Shown: one piece after another, positions 6,188-18,007 of the stretch
Numbering within the stretch: the first letter of the stretch is position 1
How the letters are laid out: every line of letters starts with the position of its first letter
The notes under the pieces: model-generated
Told to the model about the DNA's origin: nothing
Databases searched by the model: none
The model's input: the letters and a program-made list of their open reading frames with translations, nothing else
Made by a program: the position numbers and the translations under genes
From: a virus
IMG/VR virus record: IMGVR_UViG_3300032213_002566
Coordinates: 1-31,956 of that record
DNA: 31,956 nt
Direction: 5' to 3' (one strand)

Positions 6188-6282
6188 CTCGTCAACCTCA
6201 TTAGCAGCGCAGCGTCAAGTATGATGCCGTCTTTGGTAATTTGCGTGGGCCATGGCTTTAGGTAATAGAGTATTTTTTTCAT
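6184..6282 (-). CDS. 32-aa peptide, first gene of the minus-strand operon
   Basis: Begins MKKILYYLKPWPTQITKDG and ends LLMRLTR: basic and partly hydrophobic, with a PWP motif. GGAG lies 7 nt before the ATG, and the stop overlaps the next start by 4 nt (ATGA). This makes it the promoter-proximal gene of the operon running down to the endolysin. It could be a true small protein or a leader that couples translation of the next gene. No family recognised. Confidence 0.55.
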   Translation of the reverse strand: MKKILYYLKPWPTQITKDGIILDAALLMRLTR

Positions 6283-8058: not shown

Positions 8059-8271
8059 ATGGGCGACTGGGATTTAAAAAGCCATCGGCAAGTAGATCTT
8101 GAGGATGCGGTCGATTCTTTGAAGTATCAGCTATCACAAAGAGATCGTGAGCTGCAGTATTTGAGATGGTTTATAACTGGCGATCACAAAGTCATGGCTA
8201 AATTTGCCCAATTCGTTTTAAACGGCCGTAATGTAGAAACAACTGAAAAGGAGACAGAGGAAAATGTTTAA
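8059..8271 (+). CDS. Small hypothetical protein between ERF and SSB
   Basis: 70 aa, acidic. The middle forms a predicted coiled coil (DAVDSLKYQLSQRDRELQYL), followed by WFITGDHKVMAKFAQFVL. No family recognised. It lies 4 bp after the ERF gene and overlaps the SSB start by 8 nt, so it is part of the recombination operon and may help those proteins, but no function is visible. Confidence 0.6.
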   Translation: MGDWDLKSHRQVDLEDAVDSLKYQLSQRDRELQYLRWFITGDHKVMAKFAQFVLNGRNVETTEKETEENV

Positions 8272-8698
8272 CATCGTAGCAATCGGCACTATCGGCCGAA
8301 TAGAAATCAAATCTCTACAAAACGGCACTATCATAGCCGAGGGCTCCATTGCCTCTAATCGGCAAGTGAAGGGTGAGAAGCATACAGACTGGCTTAACTT
8401 CAAGGCCTTCTCTAAGACAGCTGAGACTCTAGGCAACTATGTGAAGGTCGGAGATCAGGCCATTTTCTCAGGCAGCCTACAGACTGAATCATGGGAAAAG
8501 GATGGTCAAAAGCAGTCTAAGACTATCATGGTGGTTGAGCGTTTTGAATTTGGTAAGAACAAAAAAGAAACTGAGCAAGCGACAACAAGCCCACAGTTTA
8601 CTCAAGGCTTTAACAAAAAAGGCGCTGATTTAACAGCTCCTCAACCATTCCAGGCGGGAGCTTTTGAAGATGTCGATCTCAGTCAAATACCCTTTTGA
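8264..8698 (+). CDS. ssb: Single-stranded DNA-binding protein
   Basis: 144 aa. An OB-fold of SSB type spans residues 1-97: the N-terminus (FNIVAIGTIGRIEIKSL), HTDWLNFKAFSKTAETLGNY around 40-59, and the IFSGSLQTESWEKDG segment around 68-81. A polar, Gln/Pro-rich linker leads to an acidic tip ending DVDLSQIPF. That tip resembles the bacterial DDIPF end that docks partner proteins, suggesting it can recruit host or phage replication proteins. GGAGACAGAGGAAA precedes the ATG. It should coat single-stranded DNA for the ERF annealing protein encoded just upstream. Confidence 0.9.
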   Translation: MFNIVAIGTIGRIEIKSLQNGTIIAEGSIASNRQVKGEKHTDWLNFKAFSKTAETLGNYVKVGDQAIFSGSLQTESWEKDGQKQSKTIMVVERFEFGKNKKETEQATTSPQFTQGFNKKGADLTAPQPFQAGAFEDVDLSQIPF

Positions 8699-10305: not shown

Positions 10306-10467
10306 ATTCGCTTTTGAGATAGTTCAAAATATTTGGCGTCTAGCTCTATGGGCGTTAAAAATCCGTCGAGCGGAAATAAAATTTGTGGTAGGGTGGGGAA
10401 AATTTAAAGAAAAATCCCCTCAAGAAGGCATCTTAGGGGTTTGATCAGACTAAAAGAGGAAAGTCCA
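10306..10467. other. Intergenic region with minus-strand terminator-like hairpin and G-rich 12-mer
   Basis: Part of the 264-bp gap before the initiator gene. CCCCT-c-AAGA (10416-10425), loop AGGCA, TCTT-AGGGG (10431-10439) is a bulged stem. On the minus strand it is followed by ATTTTTCTTT, so it would stop antisense transcription coming from the replication genes. GGTAGGGTGGGG (10387-10398) is repeated exactly at 12997-13008. A promoter must be near, but only a weak pair is seen (TTGATC 10441, TCCAAT 10464, 17-nt spacer). Confidence 0.4.
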
Positions 10468-10539
10468 ATGATAGGATTGTATCCTAGACCTCCTAAAATC
10501 AAAAGGAGGTTTTTTTGTCAACCGAAAAAAATAAACTAA
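10468..10539 (+). CDS. Possible 23-aa leader peptide before the initiator
   Basis: ATG at 10468 with AGAGGAAAG just upstream. It reads MIGLYPRPPKIKRRFF and continues to a TAA at 10537-10539. The peptide is very basic. Its codons cross both arms of the terminator hairpin (10488-10510) and run past the TTG start of the initiator (10515) in another frame. A ribosome translating it would unfold the hairpin, so it is placed as an attenuation leader would be. No homology is claimed; chance is possible for so short a frame. Confidence 0.35.
   Translation: MIGLYPRPPKIKRRFFCQPKKIN
10488..10516 (+). terminator. Terminator hairpin overlapping the initiator ribosome binding site
   Basis: ACCTCCT (10488-10494), 9-nt loop, AGGAGGT (10504-10510), then TTTTTT (10511-10516). 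The stem is perfect. The 3' arm contains AGGAGG, the Shine-Dalgarno of the initiator, 5 nt before its TTG start (10515). The hairpin can therefore end transcription and hide the start site. A second small stem (TAGGAT-TGT-ATCCTA, 10472-10486) precedes it. Confidence 0.7.
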
Positions 10540-11360
10540 ACGGCTATGCAAAGTTTCCTTTGTGGCTTTTCGATGCCATGGCCGAAAACTATCTAACCCC
10601 GTTTGATTGCGTGCTATGGGTGTATATAAAAAATACAGTCCCACTTTTAAAACGGCAATCCGAGCTTTATAAAAAATTCGGCAGGTCTACAGTTCAAAGG
10701 TCTATTGCTAGGCTTTATGATTTAAAATTAATCAGCAGAGACGGCTCTGGCTATGAAACTTTTTACAATCACATTGAATTTGAGGCGGTTCAAAATGAAC
10801 CACCACCGGTTCAAAATGAACCACTTACTGGTTCAAAATGGGCTACCTACCGGTTCAAAATGAACCACTTACTGGTTCAAAATGGGCTACCTGAGCAAAA
10901 TTTAAGTGGTGCTTTCGATAATGAAAACACTGTATTGAATCCTGTGGATAACTCCCGAAAGAAAGAGAAAGAAAGTATTAAAGAAAGGGAAAGAGAAAGC
11001 GCCCCCATTTCGCTGCCGCGGGCTAATGATTCGGACTCCCTTGATGCCCCTAAATTAATCAGCCTTTGGCATGAGGAAACTTCTGGAATTTTGCCCGAGA
11101 TGAACATGCTTAAAATTTCACGACAGACGTTTGATAACATCAATGATCAATTATTAATCACTCCAGATCTACAAACCTGGAAGGACGTTTTTGGCAAACT
11201 TAAGAAATCTGACTGGGCAAGGAAAAAGAAAATTCCATTTCTGATGGCTTTGAAGCCAGATTTTCGTGACAAAGTTCTTTCAGGGTTATATGACAACGCC
11301 GATTCGACCATTCACCCCAAACAAAGAATTACGGGAGAGATCATAGATGACGGGTATTGA
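10515..11360 (+). CDS. Replication initiation protein, lambda O-like organisation
   Basis: 281 aa, TTG start fixed by AGGAGG 5 nt upstream. Residues about 8-90 form a winged helix-turn-helix as in phage initiators (KFPLWLFDAMAENYLTPFDC; RSTVQRSIARLYDLKLISRD). Residues about 91-125 are encoded by five iterons and form an unstructured linker. About 126-165 is polar and charged (KKEKESIKERERES). The C-terminal 100 residues are a helical domain (LISLWHEETSG; KLKKSDWARKKKIPFLMAL) likely to contact the helicase. It should bind the iterons inside its own gene and open the origin. The stop overlaps the helicase start by 14 nt. The N-domain, position and in-gene origin support the call; the exact family was not identified. 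Confidence 0.75.
   Translation: MSTEKNKLNGYAKFPLWLFDAMAENYLTPFDCVLWVYIKNTVPLLKRQSELYKKFGRSTVQRSIARLYDLKLISRDGSGYETFYNHIEFEAVQNEPPPVQNEPLTGSKWATYRFKMNHLLVQNGLPEQNLSGAFDNENTVLNPVDNSRKKEKESIKERERESAPISLPRANDSDSLDAPKLISLWHEETSGILPEMNMLKISRQTFDNINDQLLITPDLQTWKDVFGKLKKSDWARKKKIPFLMALKPDFRDKVLSGLYDNADSTIHPKQRITGEIIDDGY
10787..10888 (+). repeat. Five iterons: probable replication origin
   Basis: GGTTCAAAATGAACC at 10787, 10808 and 10852, and the variant GGTTCAAAATGGGCT at 10830 and 10874, start to start 21, 22, 22 and 22 bp, so all lie on one helix face. The first type is a perfect dyad (GGTTC/GAACC). Iterons 2-3 and 4-5 are an exact 44-bp tandem copy. Iterons inside the initiator gene are the hallmark of lambda-type origins. 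Confidence 0.85.
10889..10999 (+). other. DnaA box and AT/purine-rich unwinding region of the origin
   Basis: Directly after the iterons comes AT-rich DNA, then TGTGGATAA (10943-10951), a perfect DnaA box (TTATCCACA on the other strand). A strand-asymmetric purine tract follows (10957-10999), broken only by TATT. Lambda ori also has iterons followed by an AT-rich, purine-asymmetric melting region. Still coding for the initiator linker. Confidence 0.65.
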
Positions 11361-12615
11361 AACAGTTTTAGGCATAGTCATTAGAGATTTCAATGAATCT
11401 TGGAAAAACGCAAAAGCCTCCGGATTTTCAAAAGAGTTGTTTCAAGACCCAAGGCACCAAAAAATTGCCGAGTGTGTTGAGACGATGGCAGACAAAGGGA
11501 TGCCTGTAGATATGGCGACAATATGTGAGATGGTTCCTAAAGAGCTTGTTGGACTTGTCATTGATCTTACAACAAACGCCCCGTGGTCTATCAACTATGA
11601 GTTTCTAATTGATCAAACAGCAAAATGGCAAAAGCTTAAGATCATGTTTACCGATCTAGTGACTTTATCATCCAATGGATTTAGAGCCCCAATCAGCGAA
11701 TCCTATGAGGGTTATATAAATCAAATAAACGAAATCACTAAAAAAATGAACGCGCTCGTGGAAGAAAGTAGAACTACATATTCTAGGCCAGAGATAGCGG
11801 AAGCTGGCATTGACCGAATTCGAGATAGAATCGAAGATTCCATTGAGGGGAAAAAATCTGGATATCTAACAAATGTCAAAGCTCTTGATGCTTGCCTTTC
11901 GGGCCTTCAGCCTGGAAGGGTGTATGTTGTGGCAGCTAGGACAAGTGTCGGCAAAACGACATTCTCGGCTTTCCTGGCCCTTGAGGCAATGAAACAAGGC
12001 GCTAATCCATTGTTTTTCACAAACGAGATGGACAAGGAAGATTTGTTTGAAAAATGGGTTTCTAATCTAGGCAAGGTTAGCAATCAAGCCCTACAATCTG
12101 GAAACTTTACAAACGAGCAGCTAGATAGGTTTTCTTTTGGGTGTGCTGAGTTTTCAAAACTTAACTGCATGGCAGATGAGAAATCTGGATGGAACCTTGA
12201 TCAACTTATCTCAGTGTCGCACAGATCAAAAAGCAAGTCTGGAGTTGATTTAATCATCGTGGACTACTTGCAACAGGTGCGCGTCAAGGGTAGCGCCACA
12301 AAACAAGAACAGGTGTCAAAGGCGAGCGATGAGCTGAAAAAACTAGCGAGGGATTTAAACATACCTGTAATCGTCTTAGCTCAAATTAACCGAGAGTCTG
12401 AGAAATCAGGCAAGCCTATGATGCCCACACTTGCAAATCTAAAAGACTCAGGCAGCATTGAACAGGACGCCGATGTTGTCATGATTCTTCACAAAGAGGA
12501 CATTAGTTTGAAGGAAGTCGAATTGTTTGTAGCAAAAAACCGCTACGGCAAAACTGGAACCATCAAACTAAACCATATTTTCGCGATAAACTCCTATGAG
12601 GAATCCAATGACTAA
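11347..12615 (+). CDS. Replicative DNA helicase, DnaB family
   Basis: 422 aa, near the 450-470 aa usual for DnaB. Residues about 1-105 are a DnaB-type N-terminal helical domain (DPRHQKIAECVETMADKGMP). The RecA-like ATPase follows: Walker A ARTSVGKT (197-204), catalytic E227 in TNEMDKED, Walker B DLIIVDYLQQ (301-310), AQINRES (345-351), the LKDSGSIEQDADVV signature (365-378) and KNRYGKTG (397-404). It should be the hexameric 5'-3' replication fork helicase loaded at the in-gene origin by the initiator encoded just upstream. The 14-nt overlap couples their translation. No separate loader gene or primase is seen, so host primase and polymerase are probably recruited. Confidence 0.92.
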   Translation: MTGIETVLGIVIRDFNESWKNAKASGFSKELFQDPRHQKIAECVETMADKGMPVDMATICEMVPKELVGLVIDLTTNAPWSINYEFLIDQTAKWQKLKIMFTDLVTLSSNGFRAPISESYEGYINQINEITKKMNALVEESRTTYSRPEIAEAGIDRIRDRIEDSIEGKKSGYLTNVKALDACLSGLQPGRVYVVAARTSVGKTTFSAFLALEAMKQGANPLFFTNEMDKEDLFEKWVSNLGKVSNQALQSGNFTNEQLDRFSFGCAEFSKLNCMADEKSGWNLDQLISVSHRSKSKSGVDLIIVDYLQQVRVKGSATKQEQVSKASDELKKLARDLNIPVIVLAQINRESEKSGKPMMPTLANLKDSGSIEQDADVVMILHKEDISLKEVELFVAKNRYGKTGTIKLNHIFAINSYEESND

Positions 12616-12877
12616 TCTACTCTATGACAGGGCTTGCAAGGCATTCGATGCGATGCATCAAGTCGAGTCCTATCTAAAAACTTTTATCTCACAGGAAAGA
12701 TTCGAATCCCTTCACGAGGAGTTCCCTAAAGAGTTTCGGCGCGCCAGTGAGATCGAGCGAGAGATTACAGGCGACATGCCGCTTGATATTGCTGAAACTT
12801 TATACAAGGAGTGGGAGGGGTGTTGGATTACAATCGCGAGAGCTTGTAGGAATACCTCTCAGAAGAACAAAAAGTAG
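12608..12877 (+). CDS. Small helical protein after the helicase
   Basis: 89 aa from the ATG at 12608, which has GAGG 6 nt upstream inside the helicase end; an ATG at 12596 lacks a site. Helical and charged (ACKAFDAMHQVESYLKTF, EFPKEFRRASEIEREI) with Cys and Trp near the C-terminus (EWEGCWITIARACRN). It overlaps the helicase stop by 8 nt (ATGACTAA), the same joint used in the minus-strand operon. No family recognised. It could be a helicase partner, but that rests only on position. Confidence 0.6.
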   Translation: MTNLLYDRACKAFDAMHQVESYLKTFISQERFESLHEEFPKEFRRASEIEREITGDMPLDIAETLYKEWEGCWITIARACRNTSQKNKK

Positions 12878-13042
12878 TCTAGAATTGATTTTAAACCAAA
12901 AGATATACCTAGGCATGGTTTGCAAACGAAACGCAACAGAATCGAAATTATAAATCCCGACTAAATCACTCAACATTTAATCGCTTGACTACCCTAGGTA
13001 GGGTGGGGTAGGGTAGGGGTACTACTAATTTGCAGGTGTAAT
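12878..13042 (+). promoter_or_regulatory. Regulatory gap with G-quadruplex motif
   Basis: 165 bp without a gene. It contains four G-runs, GGG-T-GGGG-TA-GGG-TA-GGGG (13001-13019), a textbook G-quadruplex pattern on the plus strand, about 24 bp before the next gene. ACCCTA (12991-12996) can instead pair with TAGGGT (12999-13004) in a hairpin with loop GG. GGTAGGGTGGGG (12997-13008) also occurs at 10387-10398. TTGACT at 12985 looks like a -35, but G-rich DNA follows with no -10. TATAAA near 12950 has no good -35. Confidence 0.5.
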
Positions 13043-14308: not shown

Positions 14309-14683
14309 ATGGCATGGAAGGGCGTACCAAAAGGAACTCCTAAGCCTGCAAATGCTGGCCGTAAAAAGGGCACGCCCAACAAGATCACGTTCAGCTTTAG
14401 GGAAGAGCTCAAGGCTAAAAACTTTGATATTGTTCATGAGCTTGTCAAGCTATTTGCCGATCCTGAGACTTCAGTATCAGACAAGGCGGCCCTACTAAAG
14501 CTTGTTATGGAATATTCCTATTACAAGCCTGCAGCTCCAAAAGACGATGCGCCTGTCCCTAATCTATTCGCCCAAAATATGCAAGTAGCCATGATGGGAA
14601 AAAGCACTGAGCAGCTTGAGGCAGAATTTGCCGAGCATCACGTTGAGGGATTAGAGCGGGAGCTCATGGAAGATGAGGACTGA
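14309..14683 (+). CDS. terS: Putative small terminase subunit
   Basis: 124 aa, immediately before the large terminase, where small terminases are usual. The N-terminus is basic (KGTPKPANAGRKKGTPNKI), the GRKKGTPNK motif seen in many short phage DNA-packaging proteins. Helical segments follow (FREELKAKNFDIVHELVKLF; SVSDKAALLKLVMEY), then a Pro-rich hinge and an acidic C-terminus. It should recognise the packaging site and present DNA to the large subunit. The identification rests on position, length and the basic motif. It overlaps the large subunit gene by 11 nt. Confidence 0.7.
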   Translation: MAWKGVPKGTPKPANAGRKKGTPNKITFSFREELKAKNFDIVHELVKLFADPETSVSDKAALLKLVMEYSYYKPAAPKDDAPVPNLFAQNMQVAMMGKSTEQLEAEFAEHHVEGLERELMEDED

Positions 14684-16055
14684 AAAACCCTTAGACATAA
14701 ACACCATGACTGATGAGGAAATCTTTAGGTGTAATGTGCTTTTTTCCAGAGGGTCTATGGAGTTTCTACTTCATTCAACCCAAAAGAAGATGCGACAAAA
14801 ATGGATCAAGTCAGGCAGTGATGAATATTTGGTCTTTTGTTCCAGGCAGCTTGGGAAAACTCATCTAGGCTTAGACATTGCAATTGAAACTTGCTTAAAA
14901 AATCCTGGTTCAAGAGTGCTTTACTATGGTCCGGTGAAAGACAAGCTAAAAGACATCGTAAATGATGGACTCGCGCCAATTTTGTTATTTGCTCCTGAAG
15001 GTTTAATCCATAGGAAAAAAAGTGAATATCGCTGGCAGATAGGTAAATCAGAGCTAAGGCTATGCACACTAGAAAGAGCTCACATTGATAAATATAGGGG
15101 ATGGAATGCCAAGGGCTTGATAGTCATTGAAGAGGGCTGTTTTGTCGATTCTGAAGCTTTTAGTTATGCTTGGCAGTCGGTAATCAATCCACAAAGGTTA
15201 AGGCACAATCCAAAGGTGCTTATTAATACAACACCGAGCGTTGATGAGGATCACTATATTCATACTGTTTTGCTGCCAGAGCTTGAGCTTAAAAAAGCGG
15301 TCAGCAATTACACCATTTATGAGAATCCTTATCTGTCCATCGAACAGATTGAGAAGATCAAAAAGCAAGTGACAGAGGAAGTCTGGCGAAGGGAGTACTT
15401 AGCCGAGATATTCAGGTCAACTACATCCGTTGCGGTGCCTGAATTTCAGGAAAGGCATGTTGTAAAGATTGATCCGCCGGCATTCGCTAACTGGCAAACC
15501 TGCATAGACTTTGGTGGATCCCTTGATCCTCACGGCATATGGCTTAATTACTGGGACACGAAGAGAAACAAGTACGTGCTCTATAAAAGTCACTTGATGC
15601 CTCCAAACACTTCTATTCAAGAGATCAGGGATTTTTGCTTAGAATTCGAAAAAGACAAAACCAATGGACGTCACGACAGAGTGATAGACTGCTCGGGCCA
15701 GGTTTCTATAGAGCTATCCCGCCTGAAGTTTGAGCATATGATAGCACAAAAAGGCCCTGGAAGTTTCGATGCATCCCTACAGGCTCTAAGGGTTGGCTTC
15801 CAGAATGATGTGATAGAAATAAACAGCACTTGCGCCGATGGCATTAACCAGCTAAAATATGGGAAACTTAACAAAAACCGTGATGATTTTTCAAGGAATG
15901 AAAAACACCATTGTGACTTAATTGCCGCGCTGCTGTACGGCTTTAAAGCAAAGGTCATGTATGACGCTTTCCCAAGTAATTTTGGCCTTCATAAAGAGAA
16001 ATACCATAGGCAATTACAGCCTAAATCGAACCTCGCGCTGCTTGGGGAAATCTGA
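14673..16055 (+). CDS. terL: Large terminase subunit
   Basis: 460 aa. Packaging ATPase and headful or site-specific nuclease that pumps DNA through the portal. Walker A is SRQLGKT (57-63), preceded by EYLVFC; Walker B is GLIVIEE (148-154) with E153/E154; the coupling motif is INTTPS (184-189). The RNase H-like nuclease domain follows, with likely metal ligands D279 (CIDFGG), D339 (DRVIDCSG) and D415 (HHCDLIAALLYG). All key residues are present. The ATG lies inside the small subunit gene; ATG at residue 12 is an alternative start. The portal gene follows by 8 bp. Confidence 0.93.
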   Translation: MRTEKPLDINTMTDEEIFRCNVLFSRGSMEFLLHSTQKKMRQKWIKSGSDEYLVFCSRQLGKTHLGLDIAIETCLKNPGSRVLYYGPVKDKLKDIVNDGLAPILLFAPEGLIHRKKSEYRWQIGKSELRLCTLERAHIDKYRGWNAKGLIVIEEGCFVDSEAFSYAWQSVINPQRLRHNPKVLINTTPSVDEDHYIHTVLLPELELKKAVSNYTIYENPYLSIEQIEKIKKQVTEEVWRREYLAEIFRSTTSVAVPEFQERHVVKIDPPAFANWQTCIDFGGSLDPHGIWLNYWDTKRNKYVLYKSHLMPPNTSIQEIRDFCLEFEKDKTNGRHDRVIDCSGQVSIELSRLKFEHMIAQKGPGSFDASLQALRVGFQNDVIEINSTCADGINQLKYGKLNKNRDDFSRNEKHHCDLIAALLYGFKAKVMYDAFPSNFGLHKEKYHRQLQPKSNLALLGEI

Positions 16056-16063
16056 GGCCATTT

Positions 16064-18007
16064 ATGGCTAATCAGTATTGGGCCCGCGCACCTGAATCAG
16101 AGATTGCTAACGAAATAACCCATAAATGGGAAAAGCATCAAAGATGGCTTTCGGTCACTGGCTACGGTGAACGAGCACAAAAGATGTATGACATGTTTTA
16201 TGGCGACTTCGGCATCTCTATAGATAGCGATAAAGTCAAAGCGAAAATGTCAGTGAACCACTTCAAATCACTGGTTCAAAGACTTCACTCGATCACCACT
16301 CAAAGTAAGCTGCAATATGTTCCAAAGAGCAGAAATAGCGATGCGGCTGCGATGAATGAGACAGACCTAGCCAAAGGCCTTTTGGAATATTACGCCGATG
16401 AAAAAGACATGAATTTAGTCGTGTCTCGCATGGTTGAAATCGGCCTTGTTATGAGTGATTCATACGTTTATGCTCCGTGGGACAAACATCAAGGCGAGCT
16501 AACTGTCGAAGGTGAGACGATCAGAAACGGCGATCAAGCTTTTTACTTGCTAAATCCTTTTGATATTGCAAGGCATCCTACCCTAGAAAATAGCCCTTAT
16601 TTTATAGTAAAGCTGGCTGTTAATAAGTACGACTTAGCGGCTCTTTATGCTGATGATGAAAAAAAGCAAGACGCCATTAAAGCGGTGTCGATAGAATACC
16701 CAGGCTTTGCGAATGGCTATCTAAATACTCCGTTTAATCAAAATGTCGCGGGATATGATGATGATGATTCAATCTATGTCTACCATTTACTCCACGATAG
16801 AAGCCCAAGCCTGCCAAAAGGTCGGTACACTTTAATTGCCGGCAAAACAGTTTTAGAAGATACGATACTTCCATATAAAACATTGCCAGTCGTTAGATTT
16901 GCCCCTGGTAGAACGGAAGGGACGGTTACAGGGGATTCTATAGCAACATCGCTTTATGGCATTCAGCAAGCGATTGATAGGCTTTACTCTTCAAATCTTA
17001 CAAATAATTTACATTTTAATAACCAGTCCATTTGGTCGCCGAGTGCGGTTGATATTAGTCGTCTCAGTGAAGGATACAATCTAGTCGTTTCAGCCCAAAA
17101 GCCAGAGCCACTTCAGCTAACAGGCTCAAGCCCTGAGTCTTATAAGCTACTGGCTGGCTATGAAGCGGTGATGCAAACTATCTCGGGAGTGAATGCCACT
17201 ACTAGGGGCAATCCTGAATCTAGTCTGAAGTCAGGAACAAGCTTAGCTTTGATGCTTTCTATCTCGGTAATGAGTGCCGACAGTATTCAAAAGAACTATG
17301 TAAGATCTGCGGCCGACCTTGGAACGATAGTTATCCACAATATTCAAGCTTTCGCCACAGAGAAGCGAATAGCATACATCGGCGGCGCTTCTAAGAAGTC
17401 TCAGGCCAAAGAATTCAGCTCAAAAGATGTAATGAGCATCGACCGAGTGACTATTGATATCGGCAATCCACTGCTTTCAAACTATGCAGGCAGGCAAGAA
17501 ATGATTCAGCAATGGATGCAATTTGGCATCGTCAAGGATCCAAAGGTAATCGTGGAGTTCCTTAGAACTGGCCAAATTGATTCTATCACTGAAGATGATT
17601 TTAAAGATGGCCTCTTGATTAGGTTAGAGAATGAGGCATTGAGAAGAAACGCCAATCCGCCCGTGATGATCACTGATAACCATCCTGAGCATATTATGAA
17701 GCATAAAGCTTTGGCGAATGATCCAGAAATCAGAATGAATCCTGAGATCATGAAAAATCTTTTAGATCACATTCAAGAGCATATTGCTTCTATGAAGTCC
17801 ATTGACCCCGACCTTGCGGCGATATTAGGCCTTCAGCCATTACCTTCTCAGTCTATGCCTCCTCCAGGACCACAAGCTGGGATAGGATCTCCTGATAGCG
17901 GAATGCCTAGCCTTCCAAACGTTCCAAGCAACGCGCCACCCGAGGCACAGCAAGCTCTTGATCAAGCAGTTCAAGCAGTTCAACCAATTGAAGGACAAAT
18001 AGCATGA
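16064..18007 (+). CDS. Portal protein
   Basis: 647 aa. Forms the ring at the capsid vertex through which DNA is packaged and ejected. Recognised by position between terminase and scaffold, length, and features of podoviral portals: YGERAQKMYDMFYGDFG near the N-terminus, the QAFYLLNPFDIARHPTLE segment, LPVVRFAPG (around 282), GTVTGDSIATSLYGIQQAID with the long helix after it, and SGVNATTRGNPESSLKSGTS. The C-terminal 60 residues are Pro/Gln/Ala-rich and flexible. It overlaps the scaffold gene by 4 nt (ATGA). GAGG lies upstream. Confidence 0.85.
   Translation: MANQYWARAPESEIANEITHKWEKHQRWLSVTGYGERAQKMYDMFYGDFGISIDSDKVKAKMSVNHFKSLVQRLHSITTQSKLQYVPKSRNSDAAAMNETDLAKGLLEYYADEKDMNLVVSRMVEIGLVMSDSYVYAPWDKHQGELTVEGETIRNGDQAFYLLNPFDIARHPTLENSPYFIVKLAVNKYDLAALYADDEKKQDAIKAVSIEYPGFANGYLNTPFNQNVAGYDDDDSIYVYHLLHDRSPSLPKGRYTLIAGKTVLEDTILPYKTLPVVRFAPGRTEGTVTGDSIATSLYGIQQAIDRLYSSNLTNNLHFNNQSIWSPSAVDISRLSEGYNLVVSAQKPEPLQLTGSSPESYKLLAGYEAVMQTISGVNATTRGNPESSLKSGTSLALMLSISVMSADSIQKNYVRSAADLGTIVIHNIQAFATEKRIAYIGGASKKSQAKEFSSKDVMSIDRVTIDIGNPLLSNYAGRQEMIQQWMQFGIVKDPKVIVEFLRTGQIDSITEDDFKDGLLIRLENEALRRNANPPVMITDNHPEHIMKHKALANDPEIRMNPEIMKNLLDHIQEHIASMKSIDPDLAAILGLQPLPSQSMPPPGPQAGIGSPDSGMPSLPNVPSNAPPEAQQALDQAVQAVQPIEGQIA

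Follow-up and report, generated by a model that had tools for sequence, protein, structure and literature searches.

The stretch of DNA analysed here (the window) is the whole of the IMG/VR record IMGVR_UViG_3300032213_002566, positions 1-31,956, and its segment 10787-10999 very probably represents the replication origin of the phage, of the kind known from lambda and P22. A preliminary description had proposed that the initiator gene contains a lambda-type origin, and this proposal is now supported by dyads with the lambda core, by a phasing that is independent of the reading frame, by the linked exchange of iterons and protein domain, and by a gene order like that of P22. Of the features typical of lambda/P22-type origins, the window displayed phased iterons inside a gene, adenine-centred dyads, an AT-rich and strand-asymmetric region, and a helicase gene downstream (Table 1). 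As an origin, this is one more case of the lambda/P22 type, found in an uncultivated phage. The added value lies in a natural experiment, in which three sister phages carry three pairs of N-terminal domain and iterons, and in the observation that in more than 40 initiators (among the matches listed in a survey of viral contigs) the outer arms of the iterons go with the N-terminal rather than the C-terminal domain.

Table 1. Coordinates of the features described in the window.
Feature	Position	Strand	Details
Single-strand DNA binding protein (SSB) gene	8264-8698	+	PF00436, E 1.3e-18
Initiator leader	10414-10519	+	two hairpins; TTG start at 10515
Replication initiator gene	10515-11360	+	281 codons, TTG start; weak PHROG matches
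Exchanged cassette (N-terminal domain plus iterons)	10529-10968	+	unalignable between ~91% identical flanks
N-terminal winged-helix-type domain, putatively iteron-binding	10542-10760	+	residues about 10-82
Iteron 1	10787-10801	+	GGTTCAAAATGAACC
Iteron 2	10808-10822	+	GGTTCAAAATGAACC
Iteron 3	10830-10844	+	GGTTCAAAATGGGCT
Iteron 4	10852-10866	+	GGTTCAAAATGAACC
Iteron 5	10874-10888	+	GGTTCAAAATGGGCT
Perfect DnaA box	10943-10951	-	TTATCCACA (top strand TGTGGATAA)
Purine/A-rich tract	10957-10999	+	93% purine (40/43), 70% AT
C-terminal part of initiator, putatively helicase-recruiting	11000-11357	+	88% identical in L011
DnaB-like replicative helicase gene	11347-12615	+	PF03796, E 1.5e-63; PF00772, E 6.3e-07

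Replication genes and iterons of the window

The initiator had two PHROG matches, both weak, to a replication initiation protein and to a DnaD-like loader, and at E 0.01 it gave no match either in Pfam, including PF04492 (Phage_rep_O), or in the phage genome collection. The preliminary description had placed a DnaB-like helicase after it, and the profile matches bear this out; the start of the helicase gene overlaps the end of the initiator gene by 14 bases. Genes for a Gam-like protein, an Erf-type annealing protein and the SSB are situated on the 5' side of the initiator gene. In the record, whose completeness is unproven since its last ORF runs past the record end, no DNA polymerase of family A or B was detected, and this negative result is consistent with theta replication by the host polymerase, as had been suggested. 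The description had also called the phage podovirus-like, a label that may be right and has a P22-type portal match as its sole support. The best named relative of the terminase (14673-16055) belongs to a phage of Silvanigrella aquatica, with 26% identity, and may be taken as a weak hint to the host.

Five phased 15-mers had been described inside the initiator gene, and this was confirmed here, with start-to-start spacings of 21, 22, 22 and 22 bp. When up to three mismatches were allowed, the iteron pattern occurred 17 times against 6.25 expected, a figure reached in none of 100 shuffles, and an 11-mer was present in five copies within 200 bp, compared with a maximum of two in 20 simulated windows. 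The exact 15-mer was found nowhere else in the 31,956-base record, and a literature search disclosed no paper on this 15-mer and, among the papers listed, no report of TCAAAATGA paired with iterons. The iterons are hyphenated AAA-centred dyads (GGTTCA-AAA-TGAACC), the right arm of which is decayed in two of the five copies. The sequence had been described as unrecognised, which does not hold, since it carries a core, TCAAAAYGA, common to the annotated lambda iterons (ATCCCTCAAAACGAGGGA). Alignment on the centre of the A-run shows that lambda CCCTCAAAACGAGGG and window GGTTCAAAATGAACC share this core, whereas the outer arms differ between the two, each being self-complementary.

Exchange among sister phages

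The N-terminal, putatively DNA-reading domain and the iterons have been swapped together as one cassette between sister phages. A blastn comparison of the window with L013, repeated with the full record, showed that the closest relative (L011/L013) has 91% DNA identity at positions 10351-10528 and 10969-13038 and none between them. The replaced segment of L011 carries three repeats of its own, ACTATGGCGGAAACGTACATA, spaced 22-23 bp; the C-terminal halves of the two initiators are 88% identical, and their N-terminal domains are homologous, with 30% identity. In a second relative (L172), the terminase of which is 81% identical, the N-terminal domain is also homologous to that of the window and is accompanied by dyads of the GGTGGAAAATCCACC type at 22 bp, and the initiator has an unrelated C-terminus and the opposite orientation. 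No DnaB helicase was found in the 36-kb record of this phage. The whole replication module of L172 (4193-5695) is replaced and inverted, and its initiator, which is a different one, adjoins a DNA methyltransferase-like ORF.

DnaA box, purine tract and GC skew

The perfect DnaA box reported at 10943-10951 is indeed present. Exact boxes were observed twice in the window compared with 0.13 expected, and with one mismatch permitted there was no excess over chance. A perfect box lying between the iterons and the purine tract, in a window where so few are expected, would suit a DnaA-dependent origin, in which host DnaA would bind at this site and assist in opening the tract, in the manner of iteron plasmids. 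However, a second perfect box occurs at 17331-17339, within the portal gene and probably by chance, and only one of 46 related loci (among the matches listed), namely that of the window itself, had a perfect box near the iterons. Moreover, the box is absent from both L011 and L172, and that of the window sits in the stretch that is replaced in L011. On these data, the box was rejected as a conserved part of the origin and is probably not essential to it, and we consider dependence on DnaA unlikely.

In the lambda/P22-type origin that we favour, the best candidate for the melting region would be the purine tract at 10957-10999. The purine richness described for it was corroborated: no other 43-mer of the window is as rich in purines, and the tract is partly kept in the sister phage. 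The AT-rich DNA reported between the iterons and the DnaA box proved unremarkable, its 65% AT being equalled or exceeded by 15% of 54-mers. GC skew, which had been put forward as a check, showed no switch at the site; the cumulative minimum, at 6199, tracks gene direction, and skew was rejected as an origin marker.

Survey of related loci

Public viral contigs were scanned for three phased copies of TCAAAAYGR, which yielded at least 119 matches, and a complete scan with TGAAAAYCR, a dyad of matching composition used as the control, yielded 33. Once near-duplicates were removed, 73 arrays (among the matches listed) remained, 48 of which were located at nt 200-560 of ORFs 180-420 codons long; for the control dyad, the figure was 5 of 23. 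In a set of 50 proteins, made up of these 48 iteron-bearing ORFs plus those of L011 and lambda O, 39 matched PHROG 428 (replication initiation; among the matches listed) and others were O-like or DnaD-like, so that most fell into replication-initiation families. Since the loci were picked by the core, its conservation is no evidence, and what evidence there is in the set consists of position, spacing, frame and arms.

The 126 iteron spacings of 49 ORFs (among the matches listed; position bounds of nt 190-560) were distributed 44/42/40 modulo 3, and those of a control repeat set 22/3/3. Such an even spread over the three frames indicates selection on the DNA and not on the peptide. This bears on the idea that the repeats are a tandem repeat at the protein level, a linker such as VQNEP, whose DNA has no role. 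It is true that the iteron-encoded stretch is a low-confidence linker in the AlphaFold2 model, and that 18-bp repeats kept in frame occur at a few loci, L005 among them. Against this, three reading frames are used by the five iterons of the window, which are translated as VQNEP, VQNEP, GSKWA, RFKMN and VQNG, and both the uniform spacings modulo 3 in the 49 ORFs and the complementarity of the arms across the dyad are at odds with a purely peptide-level repeat, an idea that we find scarcely credible. In L005 (11565-11734), at least 10 in-frame 18-bp copies of the iteron core (VQNGP/VQNEP) stand at the end of an ORF whose appearance is not that of an initiator. Phased TCAAAAYGA arrays without a long ORF across them were found in L020, L041 and L105, and these may be origins of the same type that lie between genes.

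The arms proved complementary across the dyad at 171 of 276 positions (46 initiators, among the matches listed), compared with a mean of 89.5 and a maximum of 115 of 276 in 2000 shuffles of the arms between loci. In the 44 initiators in which both domains could be measured (among the matches listed), arm similarity was related to the similarity of the N-terminal domains (partial rho 0.285, reached in 0 of 1000 permutations), and no such relation was seen for the C-terminal domains (partial rho -0.005, 536 of 1000), in permutations from which kinship among loci was incompletely removed. As an example, L044, L033 and L047 have the same type of N-domain and a nearly identical iteron, with C-terminal similarities of only 0.05-0.18 between pairs. 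In some cases, as in L101 and L033, closely alike N-domains are accompanied by different arms.

The A content was 0.35 just before the array and rose to 0.47 in the first 20 nt after it and 0.45 in the next 20 (46 loci, among the matches listed), which is consistent with an opening region. The same 46 loci (among the matches listed) displayed no rise in purines after the iterons; the purine tract was therefore rejected as a general feature, and the purine bias is the window's own and not that of the set.

The initiator protein and its leader

The AlphaFold2 model of the initiator was good only for residues about 10-80, with block pLDDT of roughly 60-85. In this part, helices at residues 16-23, 29-40, 48-55 and 57-69 are followed by strands at 73-76 and 79-82, a modelled topology that fits a winged helix, although Foldseek gave no significant match in the PDB for the initiator model. 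A sequence search of solved structures yielded none for the N-terminal domain or for lambda O. The protein may function like O, although membership of the O family is not supported by Pfam.

The leader contains a CCCCT..AGGGG hairpin (10416-10439) and an ACCTCCT..AGGAGGT hairpin (10488-10510), the second of which pairs the Shine-Dalgarno sequence, and it folds better than its shuffles (z -2.66). It is kept in two relatives (L011, 2873-2980, and L172, 5640-5745) with one compensatory change per stem, a weak sign matched in 68 of 500 shuffles, and has no match in Rfam. RNA-level control of the initiator is possible on the basis of these sequences. A short overlapping reading frame is contained in the leader (ATG at 10468 in the window), the start codons of the initiator genes are weak (TTG, TTG and CTG in the window, L011 and L172, respectively), and the leader accompanies the initiator gene even where this gene is inverted.

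These hairpins suggest a regulated initiator gene, and dyad repeats have the typical shape of an operator, so that the repeats might instead be where the initiator regulates its own or the helicase gene, replication beginning elsewhere. However, they are situated within the coding region, some 270-370 bp from its start, and promoters near them are no commoner than chance. Moreover, dozens of initiator genes (among the matches listed) have repeats at the same position, with the same phasing and with A-rich DNA downstream, in agreement with the annotated origins of lambda and P22. We consider an operator very unlikely.

Proposed mechanism and comparison with known systems

For the replication origin that we prefer, we infer a course of events that extends from binding by the initiator, and its stoichiometry as a dimer, through melting and helicase recruitment to the use of the host polymerase. 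The initiator would bind the five phased 15-bp dyads within its own gene through its N-terminal winged-helix domain, probably as one dimer per dyad, and the complex formed with the array would strain and open the A/purine-rich tract. The C-terminal domain would recruit the DnaB-like helicase, the product of the gene that follows and overlaps that of the initiator, after which the host primase and polymerase would take over.

On a broader scale, we see evenly balanced chances that many otherwise unrelated phage initiators share one iteron grammar, made up of an AAA-centred dyad, an inner half-site TCA as in lambda and outer arms specific to the N-domain, and that the winged-helix domain and the in-gene iterons form a portable cassette that recombines freely over unrelated helicase-recruiting domains. 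If this were so, the pairing of an initiator with its iterons could be deciphered from sequence like a code. Both the recognition of iterons by phage initiators and the exchange of origins become directly testable, and in many uncharacterised phages the iteron pattern offers a means of locating the origin by sequence.

Among the closest parallels is lambda, where ori-lambda is known to consist of in-gene iterons and an A-rich purine-asymmetric tract (PMC6022878, PMC7466680). In lambda gene O (J02459, 38686-39585), as in the window, the iterons are in the middle of the gene, are hyphenated dyads with a TCAAAAYGA core joined by adenines and spaced 20-24 bp, and have the A-rich purine-asymmetric tract on their 3' side. 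The two differ in the outer arms (CCC..GGG in lambda, GG..CC in the window), in the number of iterons (four and five, respectively) and in the next gene, which encodes a P-type loader in lambda and a DnaB-like helicase in the window. It is P22 (BK000583) that has the gene order of the window, with an in-gene origin in 18 and then the overlapping gene 12 for a DnaB-like helicase, which is 25% identical to that of the window over most of its length. However, the P22 iterons (TTTACCAGATCGGTAAA) do not have the AAA-centred TCAAAAYGA core, unlike those of the window, and gp18 does not convincingly resemble the initiator of the window. No phased dyad iterons were observed in the stretch of the TP901-1 rep gene that was inspected.

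Linked exchange has a precedent in the PLE satellites of Vibrio cholerae, in which the DNA-binding N-terminal domain RepA_N and the iterons swap over a conserved C-terminal domain, and for which the cognate pairing of RepA_N and iterons has been shown experimentally (PMC8263062). Since that exchange was already known, neither the kind of origin nor the linked exchange described here is new in principle. Selection by an origin-cutting nuclease, Odn, is also known for PLE and, by comparison, the exchange of origins may offer an escape from origin-targeting defences (PMC8263062). The PLE origin is intergenic with iterons of about 30 bp, whereas in the window the iterons are carried inside the initiator gene.
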